Assembly (NCBI RefSeq): GCF_900107415.1 | Contig: NZ_FNPX01000001.1 | Coordinates: forward strand, 248,001 to 312,000 | Direction of reading: 5' to 3' | Source: Jannaschia faecimaris | GTDB taxonomy: Bacteria; Pseudomonadota; Alphaproteobacteria; Rhodobacterales; Rhodobacteraceae | Length of the DNA: 64,000 bases | Shown: positions 4,170-21,360 of the stretch, piece by piece | Numbering within the stretch: the stretch's first letter is position 1 | How the letters are laid out: every line of letters begins with the position of its first letter | The notes under the pieces: generated by a model | The model's input: the letters and a program-made list of their open reading frames with translations, nothing else | Database searches by the model: none | Told to the model about the DNA's origin: nothing | Program-made: the position numbers and the translations under genes

Positions 4170-4805
4170 ATGACCTTATCTCGCCTTGTCCTGATCGGGT
4201 TCAGCGGCAACATGCTTGAGGCATTCGAAGCGGCGCAGGCGCAGTACGAGATCGCCGCGATCCTCTCCGACGATCCGGCCCACGGCCCCGCGTTCGAAGG
4301 CGTGCCGGTTCATCCGCTGTCTGCGGTGCCGGAGTTCGGAGACGCGCAGTTTCTCTGCCTGATCGGATCGGAAAAATCGTTTCGCGGTCGCGGAGCGCTC
4401 ATAGCGCGGCTGGGCGTTCCGGCGACACGCTTCGCACGACTGATCGACGGGCACGCGGTCGTATCGCGTTTCGCGCAGGTCGGGGCGGGAAGCGTGCTGT
4501 TTTCAGGGGCGACACTGACGTCGAATGCGGTTTTGGGCGAACATGTGATGGTCTTGCCGCAGGCCGTCATCCACCACGACGTTACGATCGGAGATCACAG
4601 CATCATTGGTACGCACGTGACGATCGCGGGTGGCGTGCGGATCGGGGAAAGCTGTTATGTCGGCAGTGGGGCCACGATCATGAGCGGGGTACAGATCGGG
4701 GCGGGCGCATTGGTCGGAATGGCGGCGAATGTCATCCGGGACGTGGCCCCGGGTGACATTGTCGCGGGCAACCCCGCGCGCGTGCTGCGCGGGGCCGGTG
4801 GCTAG
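4170..4805 (+). CDS. PglD/NeuD-type sugar O/N-acetyltransferase
   Basis: A 211-residue protein with an N-terminal Rossmann-like segment (LVLIGFSGNMLEAFEAA) and a C-terminal left-handed beta-helix of hexapeptide repeats (VGAGSVLFSGATLTSNAVLG through VSGNPARVL-type end IVAGNPARVLRG). The paired histidines IHHDVTIGD match the catalytic region of PglD/NeuD acetyltransferases, which acetylate the amino group of a nucleotide-linked amino sugar. ATG 4170 is chosen because GGAAGGA lies just upstream; the open frame also runs through the preceding tRNA, which is not coding. It converges on a DegT aminotransferase gene with a 4-nt overlap, a pairing seen in bacillosamine-type pathways. Confidence 0.85.
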   Translation: MTLSRLVLIGFSGNMLEAFEAAQAQYEIAAILSDDPAHGPAFEGVPVHPLSAVPEFGDAQFLCLIGSEKSFRGRGALIARLGVPATRFARLIDGHAVVSRFAQVGAGSVLFSGATLTSNAVLGEHVMVLPQAVIHHDVTIGDHSIIGTHVTIAGGVRIGESCYVGSGATIMSGVQIGAGALVGMAANVIRDVAPGDIVAGNPARVLRGAGG

Positions 4806-5980
4806 GCCTCCATTGCCTGGAGAAACTTGACGGTCGACCGGGCTTCCGGCACCGCCTCTCTCAGGGCGTCCACAACGGTTTGCACCATGGCATCGGTCAT
4901 CAGCGGGTGGACCGGCAGCAGAACCGAATGATCCCGCGCGTACGTGGAACGGCGCAGATCGTGGCGCATGGGCAAATCGGCCTGCGACTCCTCAAGGTGC
5001 ATGCACATGATGCCGCGCCGGGTGGCGACGCCGCGATCCAGCATGGCCTGCATCAGCCGTTTCTGGTCGATGTCCGGATCAAGGGTAACGCAATAGCTTT
5101 GCCAGTTGCTCCGCGCCCAGGGCGGCTCGACCGGGGGCTTCGCACCGTGGATATCCGCCAGGCTCTCCGTAAGCTGCGCCGCGATCTCGCGACGTCTTCG
5201 AACGATTTCGGGCAGGCGCTTCAACTGAACGCGTCCCACCGCCGCCTGGATATCAGTCATGCGATAGTTGTAGCCAAGCTCCGGATAGTCCTCGAAGACG
5301 ATTTCCCGCGCCGCATGCCGGGCCGTGTCGGAGACCGACATGCTGTGCTGTCGCCACAGGCGAAACCGCGCATCTAGTGCCGCATCACGGGTCGTAAGCA
5401 TCCCGCCTTCGCCCGTCGTAATAACCTTGCGCGGGTGGAAAGAGAAACAGGCGACGTCCCCATGGGGTCGGCCGATCGCCTGCCATGTGTCATCTATCAG
5501 AATCTCCGATCCGATCGCGCAGGCCGCATCTTCGATCAACGGCAGGTTGTGTGCCTGCGCGATGGCAAGAAGCCCCGGCAGATCGCAGGGCATCCCGATC
5601 TGATGGACGCACAGAATCGCGCGTGTCTTCGACGTGATCGCCGCAGCCGTCGCATCAAGGTCGATGTTGAACCCGCCCGGCTCGATATCGACGAAAATCG
5701 GGATCGCACCACATTGCCGGATCGCGTTCGCGCCGGCGATAAACGAATGGCTCACGGTAATGACCTCGTCCCCGGGCCCGATTCCCAGTCCGAGGCAAGC
5801 CAGGTGCAGCGCGGTCGTGCAATTCGATACGGCACAGGCGTGGGGGGCCCCCACGTCCTCGGCGAATTCCGCCTCGAAGGCGGCAACCTGCGGCCCTTGG
5901 GACACCCATCCAGACAGAACGGCATCGTGGGCGGCTTGCGCCTCTTCCTCCCCGAGGAACGGCTTTGCGATGGGGATCAT
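4802..5980 (-). CDS. DegT/DnrJ/EryC1/StrS sugar aminotransferase
   Basis: 392 residues of a fold-type I PLP enzyme that transfers an amino group to a nucleotide-4-keto or 3-keto sugar. The catalytic lysine is K185 in SFHPRKVITTGEGG, and the ring-binding aspartate is D151 in LIEDAACAIG. The family stretch ELGYNYRMTDIQAAVGRVQL is present. Its start overlaps the upstream epimerase stop in an ATGA junction, so it is the last gene of the five-gene operon starting at 9625. It may work with the PglD-like acetyltransferase that converges on it. The exact sugar cannot be read from the sequence; perosamine- or bacillosamine-type products are both possible. Confidence 0.9.
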   Translation of the reverse strand: MIPIAKPFLGEEEAQAAHDAVLSGWVSQGPQVAAFEAEFAEDVGAPHACAVSNCTTALHLACLGLGIGPGDEVITVSHSFIAGANAIRQCGAIPIFVDIEPGGFNIDLDATAAAITSKTRAILCVHQIGMPCDLPGLLAIAQAHNLPLIEDAACAIGSEILIDDTWQAIGRPHGDVACFSFHPRKVITTGEGGMLTTRDAALDARFRLWRQHSMSVSDTARHAAREIVFEDYPELGYNYRMTDIQAAVGRVQLKRLPEIVRRRREIAAQLTESLADIHGAKPPVEPPWARSNWQSYCVTLDPDIDQKRLMQAMLDRGVATRRGIMCMHLEESQADLPMRHDLRRSTYARDHSVLLPVHPLMTDAMVQTVVDALREAVPEARSTVKFLQAMEA

Positions 5981-6975
5981 GCCGACACCTCCAGTGGGGG
6001 TTCAGTCGCCAGTTCGCTGCGCCACCAGTCGATCAGATCGGCGATGCCGCGGTCCACCGGGATCTCCGCTTCAAAACCAAGTTGTTCGGACGCGGCCACG
6101 GTCGAGGCCAGCCGCCGCGGCACGGGATTAACGCTGCGCTCCTCGGCGTGAACGGGGATCAGCTCGGGGCGGCCCATGCCCGCAGACAGCAGGTGCGCGA
6201 GGTCCAGCAGGGACGTCTCGGTGCCGCTGCCGACGTTGAACACGGCATCGGTTGCCGGCATGTTCGCCGCCAGGATATTGGCCCGCGCAACGTCGCGCAC
6301 GTCGATCATGTCCATGGTCTGCAACCCGTCGCCGAAGACGATGGGCGGCTGACCAGCCGCGATCCGCTCCATCCAACGGACCATCACCTCGGTATAGCGA
6401 CCGTGCAGATCCATCCGGGGCCCGTAGACGTTGAAATACCGCAAGGCGACGTAGTCGAGGCCGTACATGTCGTTGAACGACCGCAACAGACCCTCGCCCA
6501 TACTTTTCGCCGCACCGTAGAGTGTACGATTGCCATAGGGCGGGTCGGTCTCGGGCGTCGGGAAGCTGGGTGCCATTCCGTAGATCGATGCGGAAGACGC
6601 CATCACCACCTTGCGCACCCCGGCCTCCTTGCATGTCTGCAAAAGGTCATAGGTCGCCTGTACCATCACCGCCATCGCCGCATCGGGTTCAGCGGCGCAG
6701 TGCGTGATCCGCAGTGCCGCCTGATGGAACACGGTATCCGTTCCGATGACAAGCCGCTGCATCAGGGCGCGGTCGCAGATGTCGCCTTCGATCAGGTTCA
6801 ACCGGTCATCTTCGAGTGCGACGGCAAGGTTTTCCCGCCGCCCGCGCACCATGTTGTCGACTACGACGATCTCGCTGCATCCTTCCTGAAGAAGCAGATC
6901 GACGATATGCGAGCCGACAAAGCCGCTGCCGCCGGTCACCAGGACGCGTTTTCCGTAGAGGGGGCCACGTTTCAT
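5977..6975 (-). CDS. NAD-dependent nucleotide-sugar epimerase/dehydratase (extended SDR)
   Basis: 332 residues with the NAD-binding loop GGSGFVG (residues 15-21), an acidic D40 after the second strand, catalytic S127/S128 region MASSASIYG and the Y153xxxK157 pair in YGAAK. C-terminal substrate motifs RYFNVYGPRMDLHG and FNVGSGTETSLLDLA are typical of UDP-hexose 4-epimerase-like SDRs. It lies 12 nt after the DegT gene ending at 6988 and overlaps the next DegT gene by 4 nt. It probably supplies the sugar used by the aminotransferase operon or epimerises the product. The precise substrate is unknown. Confidence 0.88.
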   Translation of the reverse strand: MKRGPLYGKRVLVTGGSGFVGSHIVDLLLQEGCSEIVVVDNMVRGRRENLAVALEDDRLNLIEGDICDRALMQRLVIGTDTVFHQAALRITHCAAEPDAAMAVMVQATYDLLQTCKEAGVRKVVMASSASIYGMAPSFPTPETDPPYGNRTLYGAAKSMGEGLLRSFNDMYGLDYVALRYFNVYGPRMDLHGRYTEVMVRWMERIAAGQPPIVFGDGLQTMDMIDVRDVARANILAANMPATDAVFNVGSGTETSLLDLAHLLSAGMGRPELIPVHAEERSVNPVPRRLASTVAASEQLGFEAEIPVDRGIADLIDWWRSELATEPPLEVSA

Positions 6976-6987: not shown

Positions 6988-8103
6988 TCATGCTTCGACC
7001 GGGATGGTCTCTCCAGCGTATCGGTTCACCGAAGTCAGGATCTGCCGCAGGTCGGAGTCGTTAAGTTCGGGATAGATCGGCAACGACAGGGTCGTGTCGG
7101 CCAGTGCCTCGGCCACGGGGAAATCACCACGGGCGTATCCCAGTCGCGCATAGGCGGGTTGCAAATGAACCGGCACGGGATAGTGAATGGCCGTCGGAAT
7201 ATTGACCGCCGCCAGTTGGGCGCGCACGGTGTCGCGGTCGGCCACCCGGATCGCATAGACGTGGCACGCGTGATCGTCGCCAATGGGCCCCGCCGGCCGT
7301 TCGATTTCGGGCGAAAGCTCCTCATGGTAGCGGTTCGCCACGCGCCGTCGGCCGGTGGTCCAGTCCTCCAGGTGCGGAAGCTTCACGTCCAGGATCGCTG
7401 CCTGCACCGTGTCCATGCGGGCGTTGAACCCCTCCAGGACGTGGTTGCCCTTACCCTTTTGACCCCAGTCGCTCAGGCACCGAACGCTATCGGCCAGCGC
7501 GGACGATCCGGTCACGATCGCCCCTCCTTCCCCATAAGCGCCAAGGTTCTTGCCGGGATAGAAGCTGAAGCAGCCGATGTCACCGAAGGTGCCCGCACGA
7601 TAGCCGTCGCGCGTCGCGCCGTGGGCCTGCGCCGCGTCTTCAATCACGATCAGGTCGTTCTGACGCGCGATGGCGCAGATCGCCTCCATGTCCGCCAGCC
7701 GTCCATGCAAATGAACCGGCAAGATGGCTTTCGTTTTCGGCGTGATGGCGGCAGCGATGCCCGCCGGGTCCATCGTCCAGGTCACCGGATCGATGTCGAC
7801 CAGGACGGGCGTTGCGCCAGCATAGAGAATGGCCGCCACCGTCGCCACAAAGGTCGAGGGCACCGTTATCACTTCGTCACCGGGTCCCACGCCCGCGGCC
7901 AGGAGTGCCATGTGCAGCGCCGAGGTGCCGCTGTTGACGGCGACGCAGTGCCGGGCCCCGCAAAAAGCGGCGAAGTTCTCTTCGAAGCGGTCGACAGGCT
8001 CGCCAAGGATGTAATTGCCGCTGCGCATCGTCTGGAGGACGGCGGCTTCGACGTCCTCCGCGATGGAGCGGTACTGACTGCGGAGATCTAGAAACGGAAT
8101 CAC
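6988..8103 (-). CDS. DegT-family aminotransferase, WbpE/WlbC-like
   Basis: 371 residues; PLP lysine K185 in SFYPGKNLGAYGEGGA and aspartate D156 in VIEDAAQAHGA. The FYPGKNLGAYGE stretch is characteristic of the WbpE/DesV-like subgroup that acts on 3-keto nucleotide sugars. Immediate neighbours are a Gfo/Idh dehydrogenase (WbpB-like, 4-nt ATGA overlap) and a hexapeptide acyltransferase (WbpD-like). In Pseudomonas these three enzymes oxidise, aminate and acetylate C3 of UDP-GlcNAcA. That pathway is inferred here from gene order and motifs. The UDP-GlcNAc 6-dehydrogenase needed to start it is not in the window. Confidence 0.9.
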   Translation of the reverse strand: MIPFLDLRSQYRSIAEDVEAAVLQTMRSGNYILGEPVDRFEENFAAFCGARHCVAVNSGTSALHMALLAAGVGPGDEVITVPSTFVATVAAILYAGATPVLVDIDPVTWTMDPAGIAAAITPKTKAILPVHLHGRLADMEAICAIARQNDLIVIEDAAQAHGATRDGYRAGTFGDIGCFSFYPGKNLGAYGEGGAIVTGSSALADSVRCLSDWGQKGKGNHVLEGFNARMDTVQAAILDVKLPHLEDWTTGRRRVANRYHEELSPEIERPAGPIGDDHACHVYAIRVADRDTVRAQLAAVNIPTAIHYPVPVHLQPAYARLGYARGDFPVAEALADTTLSLPIYPELNDSDLRQILTSVNRYAGETIPVEA

Positions 8104-9119
8104 GATGCGACCCTCTCTTGCTGAAGCTCAACTGGAAAGCCACGTTGCCGGGTGGACCGCGTCGCCGCGTCCAGCAACTCGACCACGCGCAGCCCGCTGT
8201 GGCCGTCGGTGATGGGCACGCCGCCGGTTTCGATGCACCGCACGAACTCCTGCACCTCGCTCAGCAAGGCTTCCTTGCTGGACAACGCCGGGGCATGCAT
8301 GTCGCCCAGCCGGTAGGACATCCTCGGCTCATAGGGGTTATCGCTGGGTGCGGCCCCGCGGTCATAGACTTTGACCTTCTCGCTGCTCTGCATGTCGTCG
8401 TAGATGATCATGCGGCGGCTTCCGCCGATCAGCGTCTGCCGGATCTTGACCGGGGCAAGCCAGTTCACGTTCAGATGGGCCATCGCGCCGTCGTCGTAAT
8501 AGATCGACATATGCGCCATGTTGGCCGGGCTGCCCTTGATGCAGGCGGCGGAACTGGCGGACACAGCCACCGGCTTCGCGTCGAAGATGTGGTCCAGGAT
8601 GGCCAGATCGTGCACAGCCAGGTCCCAAATGACGTTCACATCCTGCTGGAACAGCCCAAGGTTCACGCGGGTCGAGTCATAATAATAGACCTGACCCAAA
8701 TCGCCCTTCTTGATGAGCCGTGTGATTTCCTGAACCGCGCCGGTGTAGATAAAGGTATGGTCGACCATCAGGACCAGACCCTTCTTGTCCGCCAGTTCGA
8801 CCAACTCGGCGGCGCGCGCCGGGGTCTCGGCCATCGGCTTCTCGACGAGGACGTGCTTGCCGGCGCGGAGCGCCGCGCGGGCCAACTCAAAGTGGGTGGC
8901 GACCGGCGTGGCGATCATGATCGCATCGACCGCGGGATCGACGATCATCGCCTGGATGTCTGCCGTCAGCCGTGCATCCGGGTGGCGCAGCGCCGCACGG
9001 GCACAGGCGGCATCGGACTGGTCGGCAATCATCTCGACTCGCGCACATCCCGATTCGGACACTGCACGTGCGAGGTTCGGACCCCAATACCCATAGCCTG
9101 CGATACCCATTCTAATCAT
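8100..9119 (-). CDS. Gfo/Idh/MocA oxidoreductase, WbpB/WlbA-like
   Basis: 339 residues. N-terminal Rossmann fold GIAGYGYWGPNLARAV, then the family EKP motif in KHVLVEKPMAETPARAAE. C-terminal substrate domain includes DHTFIYTGAVQEI and DVNVIWDLAVHDLAILDHI, with the conserved histidine of the family active site. WlbA/WbpB enzymes oxidise C3 of UDP-GlcNAc uronic acid using NAD. Overlaps of 4 nt on both sides tie it to the acyltransferase upstream and the DegT aminotransferase downstream, as expected for a 3-amino-sugar pathway. Confidence 0.88.
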   Translation of the reverse strand: MIRMGIAGYGYWGPNLARAVSESGCARVEMIADQSDAACARAALRHPDARLTADIQAMIVDPAVDAIMIATPVATHFELARAALRAGKHVLVEKPMAETPARAAELVELADKKGLVLMVDHTFIYTGAVQEITRLIKKGDLGQVYYYDSTRVNLGLFQQDVNVIWDLAVHDLAILDHIFDAKPVAVSASSAACIKGSPANMAHMSIYYDDGAMAHLNVNWLAPVKIRQTLIGGSRRMIIYDDMQSSEKVKVYDRGAAPSDNPYEPRMSYRLGDMHAPALSSKEALLSEVQEFVRCIETGGVPITDGHSGLRVVELLDAATRSTRQRGFPVELQQERVAS

Positions 9120-9625
9120 GATTGCGTCTCCAGATTCTGGCTGTGTTCATTTTTAAATGCTTCTTGAGTGCCGATCCGGCGCGCCGGAACGCCTGCCATG
9201 ATCGCGCCGTCAGGCACGTCACGGGTCACGACCGCGCCGGCCCCGATCAGGGCTCCGGTCCCGATCCTCAGTCCACACAGGATTGTTGCGTTCGACCCGA
9301 TGGCAGCCCCACGCCCCACGTGCGTCGGCTCGCAGGTCCAGTCGTCACTGCCCTTGAGGGTGCCGTCGGCGTTGGTTGCGGCAGGATAGACGTCGTTGGT
9401 GAACATCACGCCGTGCCCGACGAAGACGCCGTCCTCAAGCGTGACGCCCTCGCAAATGAAGCTGTGGGAGGAAACCTTGCAGTCCGCACCGACGACGCTT
9501 CCGGCCTGGATCTCCACGAACGGGCCGATGCGGCTACCCGCCCCGACCTCGCAGCCATAAAGGTTAACCAGATCGGGATGCGTGACCGTGACATTCGGAC
9601 CGAGAGTGCAATTGGTAATGGGCAA
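9116..9625 (-). CDS. Hexapeptide-repeat N-acetyltransferase, WbpD/WlbB-like
   Basis: Left-handed beta-helix acyltransferase with the WbpD/WlbB signature VNLYGCEVGAGSRIGPFVEIQ, SSHSFICEGV and GHGVMFTNDVYP, ending IMAGVPARRIG. It is predicted to acetylate the 3-amino group of a UDP-sugar made by the two downstream genes. I chose the TTG at 9625 because homology starts there and AGGA lies about 8 nt upstream; the product is then 169 residues. An ATG at 9784 would add 53 low-complexity residues without resemblance to the family. It is the first gene of the minus-strand operon and overlaps the Gfo/Idh gene by 4 nt. Confidence 0.85.
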   Translation of the reverse strand: MPITNCTLGPNVTVTHPDLVNLYGCEVGAGSRIGPFVEIQAGSVVGADCKVSSHSFICEGVTLEDGVFVGHGVMFTNDVYPAATNADGTLKGSDDWTCEPTHVGRGAAIGSNATILCGLRIGTGALIGAGAVVTRDVPDGAIMAGVPARRIGTQEAFKNEHSQNLETQS

Positions 9626-10311
9626 GTCGGTTGTCCTGTCTTCGGTTGGCCAAAATGGTTCGGCACTACGGATCAAGCCCTGAGGCTCGCAAACAGGCGG
9701 TGTTTGTTGAACTAGGCATTTGGGCGGATCGGCGCATGAATTGAGCGGCTCTACTCCGGCATCAAGACCGCCCGGAGGAGCCATTCAGCGGAAGGCGGTG
9801 CACAGGTTGTCAGACCCCGCCGACCCAAAGACCACCAAAGAGCCCTCTAGGATGTCCGATAGGATGAGACCTTGCGCCCTTTGGAGGAGTGCGAGTCGGC
9901 TGGCGATTGGGTCCGGACCCAACTCCGAAGCCAGATTTAGCGGTGGTTACTTGCCGACAGGCGGCAAACCCCCGCCGAAGCGTGCCCCCCCGGGCGAGCC
10001 GGTGCGCAACTTCAAATAATGGAAGCGGCTTTTCGCCGAAAAGGACGGTCGCCGGAAAATCCGTGACAACTCTTTGTAGAAACACGGCAATCATCCGCCT
10101 TAGGCATTAAATGTCCCCCATGCCGGAGCCGTAGTCGGGTTCGGGCAAACGGGAACTCGCTCACCCAAAGGGCGAGGTCTGGCGAACGAAAAGGAGGCTG
10201 ATACTTAATCCAGACGATACGAAACGCTGCTTCACCACCTGCTCGACCGCGGGATCAGCACAATCGCTCTTCTCGGGCCGAACGCCCAAAATAAAAAAAA
10301 GGACTCATTGA
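9626..10311. other. Long divergent intergenic region between the sugar operon and the beta-helix gene
   Basis: About 690 nt with no convincing coding frame. It separates two divergent transcription units and holds a perfect 16-bp palindrome (9907-9922). An A-rich stretch plus AGGA precedes the ATG at 10312. No tRNA or clear sigma-70 promoter pair was recognised, and no repeats of neighbouring DNA were seen. Confidence 0.5.
9907..9922. promoter_or_regulatory. Perfect 16-bp palindrome, putative operator
   Basis: TTGGGTCCGGACCCAA is fully self-complementary with no spacer. It lies about 280 nt upstream of the acyltransferase start and 390 nt upstream of the beta-helix gene start. No binding protein can be assigned; the local Crp-like and LuxR-like regulators are candidates only by proximity. 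Confidence 0.4.
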
Positions 10312-12588
10312 ATGGCAGTCTACTATGTCGACGTAAATGGAAACGATGGGGCGGACGGAAGTGCCGGCTCACCTTTCCGCAGTATTTCCCGTGCGCTTGA
10401 TTCAAATCTGGCCCCCGGGGACGAAATCGTGGTCCGCGCGGGAACTTATGACGAGTCGCTCAACATCAATCGCGGTGGATCCGCGGCGGGCGACGTCACC
10501 CTGCGGGCCGAAGTGCCCGGAACCGTCCTGATCGAGCCGAGCTCCGGCTGGAACGCGATCAGCGTCAACGCGAACTACGTCACGATCGAGGGTTTCGAGA
10601 TCGCGAACGCCGCAGGCGACGGGATCGAGGCCGATAACGTTCACCACATCACCGTGCGCGATAACGTCCTGCACGGGAATGGCGAGTCGGGGATTCAATT
10701 CAACTACTCCGACTTCATCACCGTCGAAGGCAACGAGACCTACGGGAACGCGGCCTCGGGGTGGTATTCCGGCATCTCGATCTACCAGAACCGGAACATC
10801 ACGGGCGACACCAGCACGGACGGCTTCCGAACGATCGTCCGCAACAACGTCAGCTATGACAACGTGACCTATGGCGGTGCCCATACCGACGGGAACGGCA
10901 TCATCATCGATGACTTCCAGAGCACGCAGGCATCAGGCTTTCCAAACTACACCTTCGCCACCCTGGTCGAGGGGAACGTCGCCTACGGCAACGGCGGTAA
11001 GGGCATCCAGGTCGTCTGGAGCGATAACGTCACCGTGCGTGGCAACACCGCCTATCACAACAACGTCGACCAAGCGAACGACGGCACGTGGCGGGGCGAG
11101 ATCTCGAACTCGCAGTCCAGCGACAACACCTTCGTCAACAACATCATGGTCGCCGATCCGGGCATCAACAGTGACAACCGAGCCGTCGACAACACCTCCT
11201 ACGGTGGTTACTCTAACGACAACGTCGTCTGGCAGAACAACTTGATGTTCAACGGCTCGATCGGCCAGGTTTCGGCACGTACCGACGGCGGAAACCCTGC
11301 CCCCAGCACTGCGGACGGCAACCTGTATGGCGTCGACCCCGAGTTCGTCGATCCGGCAAACGGGAACTTCAACCTTGCCGCAGGATCCCCGGCGATCGAC
11401 TCGGGTACCGGGGCCTTTGGCCTGTTCAGTACGGATGTGGACGGCGACGGACGCACCAACGGTACGGTCGATATCGGTGCGCAGGAAGCTGGAAGCACTG
11501 CCGCGGCAGCACCAGCGCCATCGCAACCCGCGCCAGCTCCGACGCCCGAGCCTGCACCTGCGCCTGAACCGGTATTCGAGCCGGCTCCGGCTCCGGCTCC
11601 GGCGGACAATACCGCTCCGGAAGCGAAAACCGACATCGGATTCGAGACATCCCCCGATTCGCCGCTGATCCTGCGGCAGGCGGATCTCGTCGCCAATGAC
11701 ACAGATGCCGACGGAGACACGATCACGATCTCATCGATCGTCAGTACGAAGAACGGTGAAGCAAGCATAACGGAGGACGGTGACATCCTGTTCACTTCCG
11801 ACGGCGGAGCGCGCGCAACCGTTGTCTACCGTGTCACCGACGGAAACGGCGGATTCGATACCGCACGGGCAAGGATCAAGGTCGACGAAGATGCGACTCC
11901 CGCCCCCGTGACCGAAAGCGCCGCGATCGAGGCCCCGGCACCAGTTTTGCTTGGTTTGCCAGCAAGTACGACAGAGTCCGGGGAGGTCACAGCACCGCTG
12001 ATACCAACGACCTATCAGAGCATTCTGACCGACATGGGTCAGCCGTTCGATGTTGCACTTAACGACACATCGGCGGTTGAGCTCGGCATGCGCTTCTGCG
12101 TTGAAACCGCGGGCGAAATCGACGGCTTCCGCGTCTGGCGCGGCGAGGCGAACGACGCTGAAATGCCGGCGACGCTCTGGGATGGGAATGGTAACGCCAT
12201 CGCAACGGCCACCTTCGTCGATACGGTCGATGGCGGCTGGCAGGAGGTCATGCTCGACACTCCCATCGCCGTGGAGGCAGGACAGAGTTACACCGTGTCC
12301 TACCAGGCCCCCCAGGGGACCTACGCCTACAGCCAGGGGTTCTTCGACCAGACGATCTCGTCGGGTGCGCTCCACGTGGAAGCCGACGCCGGGGTCTTCG
12401 ACTATGGCCTGACCAACGCCGCGCCGACGGAGAGCTACAACCAGAGCAACTACTGGATCGATGTTCTGTTCGATGCAGCTCCGGACGTGGACAGCTTCAC
12501 CTTCCAGACCGAAGTGGCGTTGGATACCTTTTCCAGCGGTGCGCTCCTGATCCCCGAACCTGGGGTGCCGATGGACTGGTTTGCCTGA
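10312..12588 (+). CDS. Right-handed beta-helix / cadherin-like / DUF4082 extracellular protein
   Basis: 758 residues. Residues 1-395 are Asn/Gly-rich right-handed beta-helix coils (GNDGADGSAGSPFRSISRAL, then repeated VRGN/VEGN steps), a fold used by polysaccharide lyases and epimerases. A Pro/Ala/Glu linker (394-433) follows, then a tandem cadherin-like module with ANDTDADGDT (434-530), then one DUF4082 module (about 567-722) ending NQSNYWIDVLFD. There is no N-terminal signal peptide. The chain ends in MDWFA, an acidic residue plus hydrophobic residues, which fits a type I secretion signal. Its place beside the exopolysaccharide locus suggests a role in trimming, epimerising or binding that polymer; the activity is not established. 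Confidence 0.85.
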   Translation: MAVYYVDVNGNDGADGSAGSPFRSISRALDSNLAPGDEIVVRAGTYDESLNINRGGSAAGDVTLRAEVPGTVLIEPSSGWNAISVNANYVTIEGFEIANAAGDGIEADNVHHITVRDNVLHGNGESGIQFNYSDFITVEGNETYGNAASGWYSGISIYQNRNITGDTSTDGFRTIVRNNVSYDNVTYGGAHTDGNGIIIDDFQSTQASGFPNYTFATLVEGNVAYGNGGKGIQVVWSDNVTVRGNTAYHNNVDQANDGTWRGEISNSQSSDNTFVNNIMVADPGINSDNRAVDNTSYGGYSNDNVVWQNNLMFNGSIGQVSARTDGGNPAPSTADGNLYGVDPEFVDPANGNFNLAAGSPAIDSGTGAFGLFSTDVDGDGRTNGTVDIGAQEAGSTAAAAPAPSQPAPAPTPEPAPAPEPVFEPAPAPAPADNTAPEAKTDIGFETSPDSPLILRQADLVANDTDADGDTITISSIVSTKNGEASITEDGDILFTSDGGARATVVYRVTDGNGGFDTARARIKVDEDATPAPVTESAAIEAPAPVLLGLPASTTESGEVTAPLIPTTYQSILTDMGQPFDVALNDTSAVELGMRFCVETAGEIDGFRVWRGEANDAEMPATLWDGNGNAIATATFVDTVDGGWQEVMLDTPIAVEAGQSYTVSYQAPQGTYAYSQGFFDQTISSGALHVEADAGVFDYGLTNAAPTESYNQSNYWIDVLFDAAPDVDSFTFQTEVALDTFSSGALLIPEPGVPMDWFA

Positions 12589-12652
12589 GGCACGCAAGGC
12601 TTTTAGGAAAGATTACTAGAAGCGATTGCGACCTACCTCCTCTGATAACAGC

Positions 12653-12689
12653 CCTCCGCCCGATGACTCCATAGCTCATCGGGCGGAGG
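12653..12689 (+). terminator. Strong hairpin, likely transcription end or processing point
   Basis: A perfect 14-bp stem (CCTCCGCCCGATGA and its complement) with a 9-nt loop lies 65 nt after the beta-helix gene. It has no clear U-tract, so it may be a Rho-assisted or attenuating structure between two genes in the same direction. Confidence 0.5.
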
Positions 12690-12712
12690 ACACTTTGCAC
12701 CGCAAGAAGCCC

Positions 12713-12746
12713 CGAATTTGACCGTCAGGTGAATTTCCCAAATTCG
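12713..12746. promoter_or_regulatory. Nested inverted repeats upstream of the DUF4082 giant gene
   Basis: Outer arms CGAATTTG/CAAATTCG (8 bp, 18-nt spacer) contain an inner dyad GAATTT-CCC-AAATTC (12731-12745) that shares the right arm. Three copies of the same half-site lie 59-92 nt before the ATG at 12805, a position suited to a promoter-proximal operator. The regulator is unknown. Confidence 0.45.
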
Positions 12747-12804
12747 CGCCACGGTGCACACTCGCCCTTTGTCCGGCAATCCGGCCGACACGGAGGGATA
12801 TCGA

Positions 12805-15800
12805 ATGGCGCTGAACCCCATCATCGCGGAAAACCTGAAACCCGGCACGGCTCGCGAAATCTGGGATGCTCCGGCGAGCAATCAGATCGAAGGCTTCGCC
12901 ACAGACTTCAGCGTCGATCAGGGCGAGGGGGTCACCTTCAAGATCAACGTCAATGCCGCCGAGGGGGTCGAGGTCCCCTACACCATCGAGATCTACCGGC
13001 TGGGATACTACGGCGGCGACGGTGCGACGCTGGTGACGACGCTGGACGGGCTGACCGGAACGGCGCAACCCGATCCGATCACCGATGAGCGCGGGCTGGT
13101 GGACGCTGGCAACTGGGCGGCTTCTGCCCAATGGTTGACGCCCGAAGACGCAGTCTCCGGCGTCTATCTGGCCAAGCTTGTGCGCGCCGACAATGGCGAG
13201 ACGAACCAGATACCCTTCATTGTGCGCGAAGACGCCCTCCGCTCCGACGGAACGCGCAGCGATATCGTCCTTCAGACGTCGGACACGACGTGGCAGGCCT
13301 ACAACGGCTGGGCCGGCAACAATTCGCAGGTCGGCGGGAACTTCTACGGCGGTTTCCCCTCCGAAGATCCCGGACTCCCGGATCCGAGCCCGCTGGGCGT
13401 GGATCGCGCCTATGCCGTATCCTACAACCGGCCCATGATCACGCGCGACGGCGGCGGCTTTGCCGCGGGGGCGCAGGATTACCTGTTCGGTGCCGATTAC
13501 GCCGCGATCTACTGGCTGGAAAAGCAGGGCTATGACGTCAGCTACATCTCGGGCGTGGATACGGATCGGCTGGGGGTCGACGCGCTTTTGGGGCACAAAT
13601 CGTTCCTGTCGGTCGGGCACGACGAATACTGGTCCGGAGATCAGCGAGACAATGTCGAGGCCGCGCGCGACGCTGGGGTAAACCTCCAGTTCTGGGGCGG
13701 CAACGACATGTACTGGAAGACTCGCTGGGAGACGAGCATCGATGGCAACGGTACCGAGTACCGCACCCTCGTGAGCTACAAGGAAACATGGGCGAATTAC
13801 TCGTTGGGCGCGCAGCCCGAGGATTACGCCAACCTGGATCCCGCGAACGAATGGACGGGCACCTGGCGCGATCTGCGGTTCGTTGAGTCGGTCGATGCAC
13901 AAGGCAACCTGATCGCCAGCGGGGCCGAGCCGGAACACGCCCTGATCGGTACAGCGTTCAAGGGCGATGGTGCCACTGTTGATGACGTCGGAGTGGACGT
14001 TCCAGCCGAACTTGCGGGCCTGCGCTTCTGGCGCGACACGACCGTCGCGGATGGTGGCGTGACGAACCTCGCCCCCGGAATCATCGGCTACGAATGGAAC
14101 AACGTGCCGGATGACGAATTCCGTCCGGCGGGCCTGATCGAATTGTCGAACACATTGGTGGATTGGCCAGAGCTTCTGATAGACCAGGGCAGCCGCACCG
14201 TCCCCGGTACGGACACGCATGCGCTGACGCTCTACCGGGCCCCGTCCGGCGCGCTGGTGTTCTCCGCAGGTACCGTATTCTGGACCTGGGGCCTGAGCGA
14301 TGAGCACGACTCCTCGCCCTATGGCGTATTGGTCGAGAACCTCGCACTCAAACAGTTTACCATCAATATGTTTGCAGACATGGGCATTCAGCCCGGCGTT
14401 TCCGACGCGATCCTGGCGTCTCGCGGCCTGGTCCGGGCCGAAGCGTCGACCGACACGGTCGCAGCTAGCATCACACTCGACAACATCCCCGACGAGGTTC
14501 TCGCGTTTCAAACCTACGTCATCAGCGGGACGGCGACCGATGACGACGGCGATCCGTTGACCGACGATGGACAAGTCGCGATGGTCGAGGTGTCATTTGA
14601 CGACGGCGCGACGTGGCGGCCCGCCGAAGGGCGTGCCAACTGGACCTATTCCTGGACTCCGGTCGTTGCAGACACCTACACGATCCGCGCGCGCGCCATC
14701 GACGACAGCCTCAATCTGCCGGTCAACACCGGCCTTCCTTCGGACATCGTGACGGTCACGACTCCGCCGCTGCCCGACAGTTTCTCGCTGTTCGACGGTA
14801 CTCCGGTAGCCGAAGCACCGATCAGTGACGCGGCTGCCCTCGAACTGGGGGTCAGGTTTGAAGTGGCACAGACCGGTGTCGTGACCGAGTTGAGCTACTG
14901 GCGTGCGGCAGGGGATGCTGACGATACGGATGTTCGTAGCGGGCACCTTTGGGGCCCGGCGGGCAACCTTTTGGCGACAGTCACCTTCAACTCTGCACCC
15001 GGCGCAGTCGGATGGCAGACCGTCGCCCTCAGCACGCCCGTGACGGTTACGGCCGGCCAGACCTACACCGCCTCCTACAAAACCCTGGACAACTACGTCG
15101 CAAGCGCCGGATTCTTCGCGTTCGACTACTCCGAACCCTTTAACCAGTTGTCCGTTCCAGCCACCATCGGCGGAGTGTACCGCTACGGAGCCGACCTGGC
15201 CGTGCCGACGCAAAGCTTCCAGGAAAGCAACTACTGGGTCGACCTGACCTATGAGATTGGTGCGCCCGGCAACACGGCCCCTGTCATCACCAGCGGGACC
15301 GCGTTTTCCACGGTCGAGAACGGCTTCACCGCCGCCACGATTGTGGCGCAGGACGGTCAGAATGACGTGCTGACCTACTCGATCGCCGGCGGGGTCGACG
15401 CGGCACGGTTCAACATCGACGCAACCAGCGGCGTCCTCAGCTTCGTCGACCGTCCCGATTTCGAGCTGCCCGCCGATACCGGGGGCGACAATATCTATGA
15501 CGTCACGGTCGCAGTGTCCGACGGGATCGCCCCTGCGGTGACGCAGGATATCCAGATCACCGTGACGGATCAGGATCCTGAGAGCCCGCCCAACCCACTC
15601 GACTCGCTGTTCAATGAAACGCCGGTGAGTGCGCCTCTCCTGAACGACGGACAGGCTCTGGAACTGGGCGTGGAGTTCGAGGCGACCCAGGCTGGCGTCA
15701 TCACCGAGGTACGCTACTACCGCGCGGCCGGGGATGCGGGTGATACCGACGTGCGCGCCGCACACCTGTGGAACGCCGCCGGAACCCTTCTGGCGACCGG

Positions 15801-16968
15801 GCAATTCATCTCCGCACCGGGCGAGACAGGCTGGCAGACGGCAACGTTTGCATCGCCGGTCCTGATCCAGGCAGGCCAGACCTATACCGCCTCCTACCGT
15901 ACCGACGACAATTACCTTGGCTCGAGCGGGTTCTTCGGGACCAACTATACCAACGCCTCCGGCGTGCTCAGCGCGGATGCCATTACAAACGGCGTCTATC
16001 GCTACGGTGCCGACCTCGCCGCCCCGACCTCGAGCTTCAATGCGACGAACTACTGGGTCGACCTGGGCTTCGAGCCCGGCGTGGTACCCAGCAACGAGGC
16101 CCCCGTCCTGACGTCGGCCAACGCGTTCTCGGCCCTTGAGAACCAGACCCTCGCGGGCACGATCACGGCGACCGATGCGGACAACAACCTGTTGACCTAC
16201 TCGATCGCCGGCGGGGTCGACGCGGCACGGTTCAACATCGACGCAACCAGCGGCGTCCTCAGCTTCGTCGACCGTCCCGATTTCGAGCTGCCCGCCGATA
16301 CCGGGGGCGACAATATCTATGACGTCACGGTCGCAGTGTCCGACGGGATCGCCCCTGCGGTGACGCAGGATATCCAGATCACCGTGACGGATGAAGACCC
16401 GGAGGCCCCGCCGCTTTCCTTCGCCACCTTGTTCGCGGAGACCGACACACCGGCAACCACGATCACCACCGACCCGACGGTTTACGAGCTCGGCGTGCAG
16501 TTCTCGGCGACAACCGAAGGGGAAGTTTCTGACCTGCGCTATTTCCGCAGCACTCCGGACGCGAGCGATACGGATGTGCGCGTTCTGAACCTGTGGGATT
16601 CGAATGGGAACCGGCTGGCCACGACAACGGTTCAGTCGGATCCGGGCGACACCGGCTGGCAGATCGGTGCACTGTCAGCACCCGTGACGCTGACGCCCGG
16701 CTCGGATTACGTTGTGTCTTATGGCACTACGGAGAACTACGTCGCCACGTCGTTCTTCTTCCAATCCGATTACACGGGCCCCGACGGTTTGTTGGAGGCC
16801 GGTGGCGGGAACAACGGGCTCTTTGCGGCCGGCCTCACAGATGTCTTCCCGACCCAGAGTTACCAATCAACGAATTACTGGGTTGATGTGGGCTTCGACG
16901 TCACGCCGCTCGCCGCCTTGTCGGCGCTGCTGCAAAACGCACCGCTTGTCGATGAACTGGTATTCTGA
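12805..16968 (+). CDS. Dimethylformamidase-like domain with three DUF4082 and two cadherin repeats, large extracellular protein
   Basis: 1387 residues; ATG 12805 follows GGAGG. Residues 1-545 resemble the large-subunit domain of N,N-dimethylformamidase (IEIYRLGYYGG, SVGHDEYWSGDQRD, FWGGNDMYWK). H272 and E274 in GHDEYW sit where Paracoccus dimethylformamidase has active-site residues of its mononuclear iron centre. An Ig-like module (550-655) follows, then DUF4082 (657-816), cadherin (820-922), DUF4082 (932-1090), cadherin (1099-1196) and DUF4082 (1205-1367). Each DUF4082 ends with NYWVD. No signal peptide is present; the C-terminus VDELVF fits type I secretion. Substrate unknown; the domain is also found in non-amidase contexts, so I do not claim DMF hydrolysis. 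A 200-bp segment is perfectly duplicated within the two cadherin modules. Confidence 0.85.
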   Translation: MALNPIIAENLKPGTAREIWDAPASNQIEGFATDFSVDQGEGVTFKINVNAAEGVEVPYTIEIYRLGYYGGDGATLVTTLDGLTGTAQPDPITDERGLVDAGNWAASAQWLTPEDAVSGVYLAKLVRADNGETNQIPFIVREDALRSDGTRSDIVLQTSDTTWQAYNGWAGNNSQVGGNFYGGFPSEDPGLPDPSPLGVDRAYAVSYNRPMITRDGGGFAAGAQDYLFGADYAAIYWLEKQGYDVSYISGVDTDRLGVDALLGHKSFLSVGHDEYWSGDQRDNVEAARDAGVNLQFWGGNDMYWKTRWETSIDGNGTEYRTLVSYKETWANYSLGAQPEDYANLDPANEWTGTWRDLRFVESVDAQGNLIASGAEPEHALIGTAFKGDGATVDDVGVDVPAELAGLRFWRDTTVADGGVTNLAPGIIGYEWNNVPDDEFRPAGLIELSNTLVDWPELLIDQGSRTVPGTDTHALTLYRAPSGALVFSAGTVFWTWGLSDEHDSSPYGVLVENLALKQFTINMFADMGIQPGVSDAILASRGLVRAEASTDTVAASITLDNIPDEVLAFQTYVISGTATDDDGDPLTDDGQVAMVEVSFDDGATWRPAEGRANWTYSWTPVVADTYTIRARAIDDSLNLPVNTGLPSDIVTVTTPPLPDSFSLFDGTPVAEAPISDAAALELGVRFEVAQTGVVTELSYWRAAGDADDTDVRSGHLWGPAGNLLATVTFNSAPGAVGWQTVALSTPVTVTAGQTYTASYKTLDNYVASAGFFAFDYSEPFNQLSVPATIGGVYRYGADLAVPTQSFQESNYWVDLTYEIGAPGNTAPVITSGTAFSTVENGFTAATIVAQDGQNDVLTYSIAGGVDAARFNIDATSGVLSFVDRPDFELPADTGGDNIYDVTVAVSDGIAPAVTQDIQITVTDQDPESPPNPLDSLFNETPVSAPLLNDGQALELGVEFEATQAGVITEVRYYRAAGDAGDTDVRAAHLWNAAGTLLATGQFISAPGETGWQTATFASPVLIQAGQTYTASYRTDDNYLGSSGFFGTNYTNASGVLSADAITNGVYRYGADLAAPTSSFNATNYWVDLGFEPGVVPSNEAPVLTSANAFSALENQTLAGTITATDADNNLLTYSIAGGVDAARFNIDATSGVLSFVDRPDFELPADTGGDNIYDVTVAVSDGIAPAVTQDIQITVTDEDPEAPPLSFATLFAETDTPATTITTDPTVYELGVQFSATTEGEVSDLRYFRSTPDASDTDVRVLNLWDSNGNRLATTTVQSDPGDTGWQIGALSAPVTLTPGSDYVVSYGTTENYVATSFFFQSDYTGPDGLLEAGGGNNGLFAAGLTDVFPTQSYQSTNYWVDVGFDVTPLAALSALLQNAPLVDELVF
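15371..15570 (+). repeat. 200-bp perfect direct repeat, copy 1
   Basis: By base-by-base reading this is identical to 16193-16392. It encodes most of the first cadherin-like module. The copies are 822 bp apart, exactly 274 codons, so reading frame is kept, and flanking DNA diverges at once on both sides. Confidence 0.95.
16193..16392 (+). repeat. 200-bp perfect direct repeat, copy 2
   Basis: Second copy of the repeat at 15371-15570, within the second cadherin-like module. Synonymous sites are also identical, unlike the adjacent DUF4082 modules, which have diverged. Confidence 0.95.
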
Positions 16969-16989: not shown

Positions 16990-17034
16990 CCGGCCCGGCT
17001 CGCGCGTCTATCGCAAGATAGCGCGCGGGGCCGG
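16990..17034. terminator. Bidirectional hairpin between convergent genes
   Basis: Stem pieces are CCGGCCC/GGGCCGG, CGCGCG/CGCGCG and CTATC/GATAG closed by a GCAA tetraloop, with small bulges on the left arm. It contains the stop codon of the Crp-like gene on the minus strand and lies 22 nt after the DUF4082 giant gene. No U-tract follows on either strand, so termination is likely but not certain. Confidence 0.55.
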
Positions 17035-17802
17035 CATCAGGTAGCCGGGGTCGAAACCACAAAGCTCCGACAGGCGCGGCGCGTTCAGGATCACGACGCG
17101 GCCGTTGCGATGGATAAGAAGCTCCCGCTCCCGAAGGTCCCGCAGGGTTCGGTTGACGTGGATCGCGCTGAGCCCGAGCATATCCGCCAACAGGTATTGC
17201 GTCAGCGGCAGCGGGAAATCGTGGGGGTCGGACTGGCCCGCCTGTCCCATGCGGACGCCCAGTTCCAGAAAGAAATGAGATACCCGCTCCAACGCGCCGC
17301 GACGGCCGTTGTTGATCAGATGTTCGACTAAGATCGCGTGGTCGCGCGCCAGAAACCAAGACAGCGCATGGGAAAGGCCGTTGCCTTCGTTCATCGCCGA
17401 CATTAGGTCGACGATCGAAAATTCCGCGACCTCCACCTCGGTCAGCGGTTCGATGAACCTGTCTGAAATCTGAATCTGGGTGCAGTGAAAGCCGAGAATG
17501 TCCCCCGGAACGTGGCAATCCAGCAGCTGGCGCGAGCCATCGTGGAGAATCTTGTAGGTGATCGTCCACCCCTTAAGCAGGACAAAAGCCCGCCGATCCC
17601 GCGCCGGACGATCCACTAGGTTGTCGGTGGGGCGCAGTGTCAGCCTGCGCCGCTCCAAATCGGATATCGTAAGGCGGTTTTCTTCAGACAAGCTAAAATA
17701 CCGACTAAGGACGCGGTAAAAAGGGTCGGATGCGGGGGTTATCGGCTTGTCTGATTGATCGAATATCACGGTTGGCACCCACTCAAGTAAACAAGGGTGC
17801 AC
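17008..17802 (-). CDS. Crp/Fnr-family transcriptional regulator (first of two)
   Basis: 264 residues. Cyclic-nucleotide-binding-like beta-barrel with AFVLLKGWTITYKILHDGSRQLLD, a dimer helix, and a C-terminal helix-turn-helix (LADMLGLSAIHVNRTLRDLRE). There are no N-terminal cysteine clusters, so it is not an oxygen-sensing FNR, and the recognition helix reads HVNR in place of the FNR-type E-SR. It resembles the second Crp-like gene at 34176-34907, and the pair brackets the exopolysaccharide locus. The start is uncertain: GTG at 17802 is used, with in-frame GTG codons 8 and 11 residues later and no clear ribosome site. Control of the nearby polysaccharide genes is inferred from position only. 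Confidence 0.85.
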   Translation of the reverse strand: MHPCLLEWVPTVIFDQSDKPITPASDPFYRVLSRYFSLSEENRLTISDLERRRLTLRPTDNLVDRPARDRRAFVLLKGWTITYKILHDGSRQLLDCHVPGDILGFHCTQIQISDRFIEPLTEVEVAEFSIVDLMSAMNEGNGLSHALSWFLARDHAILVEHLINNGRRGALERVSHFFLELGVRMGQAGQSDPHDFPLPLTQYLLADMLGLSAIHVNRTLRDLRERELLIHRNGRVVILNAPRLSELCGFDPGYLMPAPRAILR

Positions 17803-19173: not shown

Positions 19174-21360
19174 TCACCAGTTTTCACCGGGAACCTTCGC
19201 CGAGAAGGTCGCTGAATCGCGGAACGAGTAGAGTTTCTGCCGGCCCGGATTGACGTTGGTCAGAACGGCCAGGACCGCGACGTTGCGCGCCGTGCGCAGC
19301 CGCTCCACCGCAAGGCGAACCAGCGCGCCGCGCGTACTGCCCCAGGTCACCACCAGCAGGACGCTCTCCACGGCGGCGGCGATCTGGATGACCGACGCAT
19401 TGCTGAGAACCGGCGGACACAGAAAGATCGGTGTCAGCCCACGTGCGGCGGCATAGTCGATCAGGGGTGCGATCCGGCTGTCATCGTGCAGCGTCGGCAG
19501 ACGTCCAGCACCCCGCGGCAACAGCAGTACACCCTCGTGCGATGTCTGAATGACGAGGCTGTCCAACAGGGCCGTCGTGGCTGGCTCGCTTCGCTGCGGA
19601 CCACGCAGATAGCGAACAAGCCCGGAGTCGGGTCGAACCGTCGCCGTCTTGCCACGGTTGCGGGCGGGCCGGGTGTCAATCAGAAGAACGCCATGCCCCT
19701 CGGCGGATATATCGGCAGCCAGCAGACCGGCGAAGCGGTCCATCGAGTCCGCATTCTCGGTTGCGATGATCGCAAGACTGTCGGGGATTAATCCGTCGTT
19801 CGCCGCCTTGATCGACACGACAGACCCTCGCAACGCGTCCATCAGCCCCGGGTCAGCCTGAGGTCGATTGTGCAGTCGTGCGCGGAGCTTCGGGCGCGGC
19901 AAGGAACCGACGGGGGTCAGGCCCGGAACGTCTGACAATTGCTCAAGACTCCGGACGGTGGGGTCCATGACTTCCAGGATGCCTGCCAACGTCAGCGCCA
20001 CGATCAGCGCGGCAACAGCCGCGATGGCCAAAGTGACCTTGCGGCTGCGTCCTTCCTGCCAGATCGGTTCGGTTGCAGGGGCCAGAATTTCCACGTCGAC
20101 CGGCGGTTGCAGCAGGCGCGCTGCAAGCAAGCGGTGCCGGTCCTCCAGACTGTCGAGGACGGCGCGCTGTTCGTCGGCGCGCCGCAGAAGATCGACCAGC
20201 GTCAATTCGGCCATCGACGTTCGGGCCAAGGCGTCCTCGCTGTCGCTGAGAGTCTTCAGGAGGGTCGCTTCCCGATCACTCAGCTGTTGGAGCTGGATCG
20301 TCATCGTTTCGATCCACGTTGTCAGTTCATCACGGATCGCCGTCTCCAACTCCTCGATCCTGGCCTGCTCCACGCGAACACCCCCGAAGGCTTCGCCGTA
20401 GCTGGCCTGCATCCGCGTCAACTCCCGCTTGCGGGCCTGGAGAAGCTGGCGCATCTCGGTCAGTGCTTCGCTTTCGTCTGTGACGGCTGTGCCACCGGCG
20501 CTCAACGCCATCTCCGCGGCGGCCGCGCGCCCCGACAGTTCAAGTTGAGCGGCCCGAATTTCGCTAATCTGTTCGCTCAGCCGAGAAACATTCGCCGACA
20601 GCAGTTCAGCACCCCGCCCGACGGACACAACGCCGCTCTGCCCCTGGAATCGTTCAAGCGTGGCAACACGGCGCTCGACAACTTCCCGTTGCGCCTCGAT
20701 CTGTTGGTTAAGACTGGCCAGAACGTCGGCAATGCGCTGTTTGTGCCCGGCTTCCCGGTCGGTACGGTAAATCTCGACTATGGAATTCGGCACCGCCGCA
20801 GCCAATTTCGGATCGGGCGCCGTGAACAGCACCTCTACCATTTGGCTCTCCACACGCCGCCAAACCGACAAGCGACCATTGAAGCTGGCCAAGACACGGG
20901 CCGCGGTTTCCTCGCTGTCTGGCTCCTCCGGGGGGGCGTCATCTGCCACGAACGGCAAGGAATCAATAATTGCCCGGATTGGTCCCTTTTCATCGGCAGC
21001 AGGGTTGAACCCTGGATGATCCTGCAAGTTGAATCGGGCGATGACTTGGTCCGCGATCGCGCGGGAACGCAGACGCTCGACCTCGTTGTTGATGTCCAGC
21101 ACAGGTTCGTCCGCCCGCGGGTCGGCCACCATCACCTGTTGCAGTATGAATTGCGCCCGCGCCTGATATTTCGGGGCACTCGCAAGGACAAAGGGCAATG
21201 CAAGGATCGTCAGAACCAGGGTGACGGCGGATATGAACCAGATTCTGCGACGGATCAGCCGGAAAATCCCAGTCATGTCGATATCGGCCTCGCGAATGCG
21301 AGGAGCTTCGGGGGCCTCGAGCGAGAGGCGGGCCCGACTATCCTGAACAATGCGGTTCAT
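19174..21360 (-). CDS. Wzz/ExoP-like chain-length and co-polymerase protein with degenerate kinase domain
   Basis: 728 residues. A first membrane helix (IWFISAVTLVLTILALPFVLA, about 33-53), a long periplasmic coiled coil and a second membrane helix (VTLAIAAVAALIVALTLAGIL) define the PCP-2a/GumC-ExoP family that sets exopolysaccharide chain length. The cytoplasmic C-terminus keeps the fold of a BY-kinase (SLAIIATEN at about 525, VLLIDTRPA at about 557). The Walker A loop, normally GEGKST, is replaced by ENADSMDR, and there is no C-terminal tyrosine cluster. It therefore probably does not phosphorylate itself. The start overlaps the upstream GT4 gene by 4 nt. Confidence 0.85.
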   Translation of the reverse strand: MNRIVQDSRARLSLEAPEAPRIREADIDMTGIFRLIRRRIWFISAVTLVLTILALPFVLASAPKYQARAQFILQQVMVADPRADEPVLDINNEVERLRSRAIADQVIARFNLQDHPGFNPAADEKGPIRAIIDSLPFVADDAPPEEPDSEETAARVLASFNGRLSVWRRVESQMVEVLFTAPDPKLAAAVPNSIVEIYRTDREAGHKQRIADVLASLNQQIEAQREVVERRVATLERFQGQSGVVSVGRGAELLSANVSRLSEQISEIRAAQLELSGRAAAAEMALSAGGTAVTDESEALTEMRQLLQARKRELTRMQASYGEAFGGVRVEQARIEELETAIRDELTTWIETMTIQLQQLSDREATLLKTLSDSEDALARTSMAELTLVDLLRRADEQRAVLDSLEDRHRLLAARLLQPPVDVEILAPATEPIWQEGRSRKVTLAIAAVAALIVALTLAGILEVMDPTVRSLEQLSDVPGLTPVGSLPRPKLRARLHNRPQADPGLMDALRGSVVSIKAANDGLIPDSLAIIATENADSMDRFAGLLAADISAEGHGVLLIDTRPARNRGKTATVRPDSGLVRYLRGPQRSEPATTALLDSLVIQTSHEGVLLLPRGAGRLPTLHDDSRIAPLIDYAAARGLTPIFLCPPVLSNASVIQIAAAVESVLLVVTWGSTRGALVRLAVERLRTARNVAVLAVLTNVNPGRQKLYSFRDSATFSAKVPGENW

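Follow-up and report, generated by a model that had tools for sequence, protein, structure and literature searches.

Two adjacent DUF4082 proteins of Jannaschia faecimaris as candidate exported enzymes for one exopolysaccharide

The subject of this work is a pair of adjacent genes, here called P1 and P2, in a stretch of 64,000 nucleotides from Jannaschia faecimaris (contig NZ_FNPX01000001.1, positions 248,001 to 312,000; hereafter the window), where they lie within a cluster of polysaccharide genes. Our best joint reading, to which we assign a probability of about 0.58, is that both proteins are enzymes secreted by the type I route (type I secretion system, T1SS) and dedicated to the one polysaccharide of the surrounding cluster; export, substrate and reactions alike are what we infer. 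P1 and P2 would leave the cell by type I secretion, most likely via a PrtD/HlyD pair encoded elsewhere in the genome. Outside the cell, P1 would work on the polymer backbone as a beta-helix enzyme of the C5-epimerase or lyase kind, and P2, as a metal-dependent amidohydrolase, would take the N-acyl group off, or cut an amide in, the N-acylated amino sugar of the polymer. The cadherin modules and, presumably, the DUF4082 modules would hold both enzymes on the matrix. An earlier note on this DNA had proposed a secreted polymer-modifying or polymer-binding module, and the analysis supports that proposal: a crude hydropathy test found no hydrophobic signal from another start, the genome encodes a type I exporter, and the pair or its members recur in exopolysaccharide clusters elsewhere. 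The two genes and their domains, in positions of the window, are:

10312..12588 (+): P1, ORF (open reading frame) of 758 residues, C-terminus DWFA
10312-11496 (+): P1, predicted beta-helix enzyme domain, approximately residues 1-395 (Pfam, Foldseek, pRL9 orthologue)
11608-11883 (+): P1, cadherin-like domain (Pfam)
12043-12459 (+): P1, DUF4082 (Pfam)
12805..16968 (+): P2, 1387 residues, C-terminus ELVF
12982-14304 (+): P2, predicted DMFA2_C amidohydrolase domain (Pfam, Foldseek)
13300..13626 (+): P2, putative metal site, with Y166 at 13300-13302, H272 at 13618-13620 and E274 at 13624-13626 (alignment)
14815-15240, 15637-16059 and 16444-16884 (+): P2, three DUF4082 (Pfam)
Other P2 modules (+): Ig-like region and two cadherins (Pfam)

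The ORFs and Pfam matches bear out the architecture given in the earlier note, a beta-helix/cadherin/DUF4082 protein next to a dimethylformamidase-like/Ig/DUF4082/cadherin protein; its description of both as giant holds for P2 and fails for P1. In P1, Beta_helix was matched with an E-value of 7.2e-10, Cadherin_5 with 2.9e-15 and the single DUF4082 with 3e-43, and in P2, DUF4082 reached 2.3e-112 over three stretches and cadherin 8.6e-15 over two. These four are the only DUF4082 domains of the genome. The literature searched, in the portions available, assigns DUF4082 no function and mentions it only in a secretome study; DUF4082 bears a weak likeness to the PHR domain, for which two relatives score 31.6 and 25.6 bits, above the cut-off of 23.6, and the P2 of the window stays below it. 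The start of P2 is more plausibly the ATG at 12805 than the GTG at 12754, which would give 1404 residues, because a ggagg sits just 5' of that ATG and homology begins there. Both proteins appear to lack an N-terminal signal peptide, as had been claimed: a crude hydropathy test found no Sec- or Tat-like N-terminus in either, alternative starts included, the best 12-residue mean in the N-terminal region being 0.53 for P1 and 0.51 for P2, against 2.6 for the ExoF of the window and 3.1 for a HlyD of the genome. An in-frame stop lies directly 5' of P1, and P2 has only 24 in-frame codons upstream.

The best-supported reading of the P2 domain, from sequence comparison and a structure model, is a predicted metal-dependent amidohydrolase of the dimethylformamidase (DMFase)/acylase type. 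The domain matched DMFA2_C (PF20254) with 301.9 bits against a cut-off of 27 (E 1.1e-89), N-acetyl-(R)-beta-phenylalanine acylase (8huy) with 8e-10 by sequence and 6.8e-16 by profile, and DMFase with 9.2e-5 by profile. The model reached a predicted local distance difference test (pLDDT) score of 78.5, and its first nine Foldseek matches were the acylase and DMFase (E 2.7e-12 and 1.2e-9, probability 1.00), in alignments with a template modelling score of about 0.4, for a multi-domain query, and 12-16% identity. In DMFase, the iron is bound by Y399, Y440 and E521, and H519 is required for activity (PMC7686228). Counted along the alignment, Y399, H519 and E521 align with Y166, H272 and E274 of P2, and these three residues are invariant in all 54 aligned sequences, namely the P2 of the window and 53 of 87 usable relatives. 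The fold, the sequence likeness and the positions of the Tyr and the His-x-Glu are common to the P2 domain, DMFase (PMC7686228) and the acylase (8huy, 8i5a), whereas P2 differs from both in its large size, in its many domains, DUF4082 and cadherin modules among them, and in being probably exported. Our searches found no literature on a dimethylformamidase with type I secretion, nor on the beta-phenylalanine acylase.

The substrate proposed for P2 comes from a sugar cassette upstream of the pair, whose genes are listed here with their identity to the genes of plasmid pRL9 of Rhizobium johnstonii 3841:

4170..4805 (+): hexapeptide acyltransferase, NeuD/PglD-like by reading (Pfam Hexapep; start inferred)
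4802..5980 (-): DegT1 sugar aminotransferase, cassette (60%)
5977..6975 (-): short-chain dehydrogenase/reductase (SDR) epimerase/dehydratase, cassette (58%)
6988..8103 (-): DegT2 sugar aminotransferase, cassette (57%)
8100..9119 (-): MocA-type sugar dehydrogenase, cassette marker (52%)
9116..9784 (-): hexapeptide sugar N-acyltransferase, cassette (66%)

Since the cassette comprises a dehydrogenase, two aminotransferases, an SDR and two hexapeptide acyltransferases, its gene content suggests that it makes a multiply N-acylated amino sugar. MocA scored 142.5 bits against the model of UDP-N-acetylglucosamine 3-dehydrogenase, under the cut-off of 450.

P2 and MocA occur together far beyond this locus. 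Among 295 Rhodobacteraceae genomes, P2 (E 1e-20) was found in four and MocA (E 1e-90) in five, which include all four; the chance of such an overlap is 1.6e-8, or 9.5e-7 without the own genome. All four P2-bearing family genomes also carry P1. In 96 genomes of the class, P2 and MocA were present in the same two. A wider set was drawn from the best 80 of 201 P2-like loci, fetched with flanks of up to 10 kb on contigs many of which are shorter; 35 of these loci define 35 P2-bearing genomes, some of them overlapping the 295 (L020 and L027 are probably the same as G077 and G092), and MocA (E 1e-60) was detected in 33 of the 35, the weakest match being that of Saccharothrix (L079), at 45% identity. 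Physical linkage is not always kept: in G077, P2 and MocA are on different contigs, with MocA at least 121 kb from a contig end, and in Roseobacter sp. GAI101 they are about 3.3 Mb apart on a scaffold of 3.79 Mb (about 0.5 Mb if circular). Because genomes with P2 relatives nearly always carry MocA, P1 and P2 probably act on one polymer, and because a predicted exported amidohydrolase tracks that pathway, P2 would most likely act on the amino sugar of the cassette within the polymer. The P1 helix was detected in one of 60 relatives, which is the own genome itself, and in none of 19 congeners, and is therefore an accessory trait.

Type I export of P1 and P2 themselves is, by analogy with their relatives, a well-supported prediction. 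An acidic residue followed by hydrophobic ones at the C-terminus is one known type of T1SS signal, and the two proteins do end in DWFA and ELVF, as previously described. Such an end, with three to four hydrophobic residues at the very terminus, was present in 11 of 20 ORFs of non-rhizobial-type relatives (including one P1 relative, L019, and ends that look frame-broken in L031 and probably L026) against 7 of 128 neighbouring genes (Fisher p 2.7e-7). None of the 51 rhizobial-type ORFs had it, their usual end being PQLAA (31 of 51); on pRL9, the exporter adjoining the rhizobial-type genes is of a different type, with a Peptidase_C39 domain. RTX repeats are common but not universal among T1SS substrates, and no HemolysinCabind match was found by Pfam in P1 or P2. 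The earlier note was right that the window holds no T1SS transporter: the sole TIGR01842 match in the 64 kb (59656-60336) is a plain ATP-binding cassette (ABC) protein, sub-threshold at 111.7 bits. Its suggestion to look for a PrsDE-like exporter in the genome led to one intact PrtD-type ABC gene (C12:33693-35312; 643.8 bits, cut-off 510.15), followed by an HlyD gene. In a second PrtD-type ABC of the genome (L116, G000:C31, 9234-10807), the coding sequence is divided between two frames that overlap, with an HlyD-like match after them; either the gene is broken or the assembly is in error.

Within the flanks of the 80 P2 loci, a T1SS-type ABC gene (at least 60% query coverage) was found in 29, HlyD in 27 and both in 26, and at L017 a PrtD 64% identical to that of the own genome lies 8 kb from P1. 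Published work on pRL9 proteins reports pRL90140 among those missing from the supernatant of a prsD mutant, and predicts pRL90159 and pRL90161 (179 and 184 kDa) as BltDE substrates (PMC2275737). T1SS export is thus published for a P1 relative and predicted in print for P2 relatives, since the protein of the pRL9 P1 orthologue (L107 8039-10276, -), with six TPT repeats like pRL90140 and a computed mass of 75.3 kDa against the published 79.0, fits pRL90140, and the two P2-type proteins of pRL9 compute to 178.6 and 183.9 kDa, matching pRL90159 and pRL90161. The contigs of many Rhizobium genomes (L061, L069, L075, L083 and L085) end inside the P2-type gene, perhaps owing to internal repeats, so that the genes there are cut short.

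Comparison with pRL9 also informs the reading of P1. Sixteen genes of the window were matched on this plasmid, the P1 helix being 67% and P2 49% identical (best aligned piece per gene), and the pRL9 orthologue has RTX repeats (E 2.3e-25) after its helix. The same beta-helix domain is thus seen with exchanged carrier modules, Rhizobium having RTX repeats where the window has cadherin plus DUF4082. Among the top Foldseek matches of the P1 model were AlgE6, AlgE4, an alginate epimerase/lyase, RbmB, PL6 enzymes and GH136 (E 3.3e-6 to 7.7e-6, from a weak model), in alignments of 12-18% identity, and a phage tailspike ranks beside these enzymes among the first matches. By its model, P1 resembles a beta-helix enzyme like the AlgE epimerases or the RbmB lyase. 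The AlgE proteins are exported RTX proteins. RbmB is a lyase on Vibrio polysaccharide that cleaves the polymer of its own organism (PMC11637428). P1 is predicted to share the beta-helix enzyme fold with the AlgE mannuronan C5-epimerases of Azotobacter and the RbmB of Vibrio, but its carrier modules are cadherin and DUF4082.

The closest described system is that of pRL90140, pRL90159, pRL90161 and bltDE on pRL9 (PMC2275737), which has in common with the window an orthologous helix, DMFA2_C plus DUF4082 proteins and a polysaccharide cluster. It differs in that its P1 carries RTX repeats and its P2-type genes adjoin genes for an HlyB-type exporter and for COG0523 proteins, neither of which is present in the window cluster. 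In the portions available of the literature searched, neither the DMFase domain nor the sugar link of the pRL9 proteins is named. The Rap and Ply proteins of R. leguminosarum, substrates of PrsDE (PMC9298526, PMC2275737), are likewise signal-less, cadherin-like or glycanase proteins that are exported by a T1SS and act on the organism's own exopolysaccharide, whereas P1 and P2 differ from them, by description, in their catalytic domains and in carrying DUF4082. The domain typical of Rap is Ra/CHDL; in P1 and P2, Pfam finds cadherin-type domains. The expected co-occurrence of the pair with exopolysaccharide loci was found, the pair or its members lying in such clusters on pRL9, on pLA6_003 and on an Albibacillus contig, the last two with nearly the same gene set as the window cluster. 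Many P2 relatives have no exopolysaccharide gene in the fetched flank, and ExoF was found in 20 of the 80 loci.

Several observations weigh against the reading of P1 and P2 as exported enzymes of one polymer. DMFase Y440 has no aligned partner in P2; Y207 (13423-13425) is invariant and lies 41 residues from Y166, like the Y399-Y440 spacing, in a loop with pLDDT below 50, and is a candidate only for the second Tyr. The P1 model, built from four sequences, has a pLDDT of 54.7 and is poor outside the helix, so that DUF4082 is not resolved by it. The PrtD/HlyD pair is on the same contig as P1, 223 kb away, and in this genome it is not linked to the P1-P2 pair. The five cassette proteins match NCBIfam models only below the curated cut-offs, and the sugar is therefore left unnamed; MocA is the sole cassette gene searched genome-wide and stands there for the whole cassette. 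P2 is present without MocA in the genomes of L025 and L026, and the cluster without P2 in G263. Finally, kinship, or transfer of the cluster as a block, weakens every co-occurrence p-value.

An unlikely alternative is that P1 and P2, once exported, serve as matrix proteins or adhesins and do no more than bind and cross-link the polymer, with the enzyme-like domains as binding scaffolds. In its favour, both proteins consist for the most part of large, repeated beta-sandwich modules (cadherin, DUF4082), and in R. leguminosarum PrsDE exports Rap proteins with cadherin-like domains, which act in the biofilm matrix (PMC9298526). Against it, all 54 aligned sequences keep the Tyr, His and Glu that align with DMFase, and the helix stays 67% identical between the window and Rhizobium although the carrier modules have been exchanged, as expected if the domains retain their own activity. 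Were the enzymatic reading true, an amide-cleaving enzyme would join the known exported matrix enzymes, and RTX and DUF4082 tails would be interchangeable on one enzyme domain.

It is quite improbable, in our view, that the pair is a module on mobile DNA for scavenging foreign polymers or for competition, or a bacteriocin-like one. A bacteriocin-like role was suggested for pRL90159 and pRL90161 (PMC2275737) and later repeated (PMC10925705), and the plasmid-borne relatives and the patchy spread (four of 295 family genomes have P2, and one of 60 relatives has the P1 helix) agree with this view; against it, P2 tracks a biosynthetic sugar gene of its own genome, in 33 of 35 cases, even where the two are far apart (G077, Roseobacter sp. 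GAI101). While the P2 relatives have so far been described as bacteriocin-like, the link to one sugar pathway makes their function testable in a laboratory strain, R. leguminosarum 3841. We consider it very improbable that P1 and P2 are functionally unrelated to each other or to the cluster, as passengers of an island moving as a block: block inheritance would yield co-occurrence, and the cluster starts about 100 bp from a tRNA-Arg gene, but P2 and MocA co-occur unlinked, the same genes are arranged differently in loci of Rhodobacterales, Rhodospirillales and Rhizobiales, and a search of the window for a second copy of the tRNA end gave none.

A further proposal concerns the metal of P2. It is possible, though we hold it doubtful, that P2 represents a class of exported metallo-amidohydrolases of the DMFase fold that remove N-acyl groups from one specific exopolysaccharide of alphaproteobacteria, in which a multiply N-acylated amino sugar is abundant, with a COG0523 GTPase serving the metal supply in many lineages. 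A COG0523 match lies on the same strand within 1.5 kb of 39 of 61 P2 ORF rows (10 upstream, 29 downstream; closed P2 ORFs with 2.5 kb on both sides, L079 being counted twice), and COG0523 occurs in the flank of 46 of the 80 P2 loci. As background, this GTPase is matched (E 1e-25) in 38 of 96 class genomes and has a close member in 8 of 96; chance adjacency to P2 is therefore rare. COG0523 genes that immediately adjoin a P2-type gene, in many cases with the strand shared, include:

L107 33582-34766 and 40356-41588: each of the two P2 paralogues of pRL9 has its own COG0523 gene
L108 10599-11855: COG0523 gene
L128 1444-2703: COG0523 gene

The CXCC motif was present in all three COG0523 proteins examined. 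The P2-linked GTPases form one subfamily in the tree, and outside P2 loci members of this subfamily adjoin, at L126, a gene for ZnuA and, at L130, one of the FUR family, neighbours that point to zinc as its metal. No COG0523 gene was found near P2 in the window or in its nearest relatives (L017, L019 and L020), and among the cobW-family matches of the own genome one is close to COG0523, from another subfamily. The chains that pass a type I exporter are held to be unfolded, which would make cytosolic metal loading of P2 a paradox. Fe-type nitrile hydratase requires a COG0523 activator (PMC2770081), and a similar metal activation of P2 is conceivable by analogy. If it occurs, the COG0523 metallochaperones would gain a concrete candidate client. 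Two narrower proposals failed. COG0523 as a partner of P2 only was rejected, seven of the eight class genomes with a close member having no P2 match, and a Zur-regulated zinc scavenger was not supported, as no site with up to two mismatches to a Zur-box consensus, or to its two variants, was found within 900 bases upstream of P2 or COG0523 matches in the 80 loci and the window.

Beyond the pair, the remaining cluster genes assigned in the window are the following, with percentages again giving identity to pRL9:

17008..17802 (-): Crp-type regulator adjoining P2; a regulator 48% identical to it adjoins P2 in L017
18138..19124 (-): SDR epimerase (Epim2; domain match)
19174..21360 (-): Wzz/ExoP-type chain-length protein (domain match)
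21357..24733 (-): three glycosyltransferases, GT4, GT4 and GT2 (58, 60 and 61%)
24660..25877 (-): ExoF-type export protein (Poly_export; 26%)
26089..27384 (+): Wzy-type polymerase/ligase (45%)
27637..28491 (+): WecG/TagA glycosyltransferase (58%)
28350..29186 (+): bacterial sugar transferase, priming (Bac_transf; start uncertain; 58%)
29237..30184 (+): UDP-glucuronate decarboxylase-like gene, matched region (73%, the pRL9 gene bearing that annotation)
29950..31461 (+): GT4 glycosyltransferase (start uncertain)
31519..32931 (+): Wzx-type flippase (domain match)
32852..33784 (-): LuxR-type regulator (GerE; 40% to the pRL9 regulator)

At the left edge of the cluster, a tRNA-Arg (cct) gene (3992-4068, +) is separated by about 100 bp from the gene at 4170, the first on the cassette side, and is a possible island edge. 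A genomic island was considered on this basis; no repeat of the 3' end of this tRNA was found elsewhere in the window, and the one 13-base match falls inside another tRNA gene. On pRL9, the glycosyltransferase pRL90136 is reported to be needed for lentil root colonisation (PMC11103875), and from the gene numbering it should be the GT2 of the pRL9 cluster. A plasmid segment of Paracoccus liaowanqingii carries P1, polysaccharide genes and a partial cassette, with no MocA gene annotated; beside this partial cassette lies a formyltransferase gene (L109 17830-18714, +), which could lead to an N-formyl sugar.

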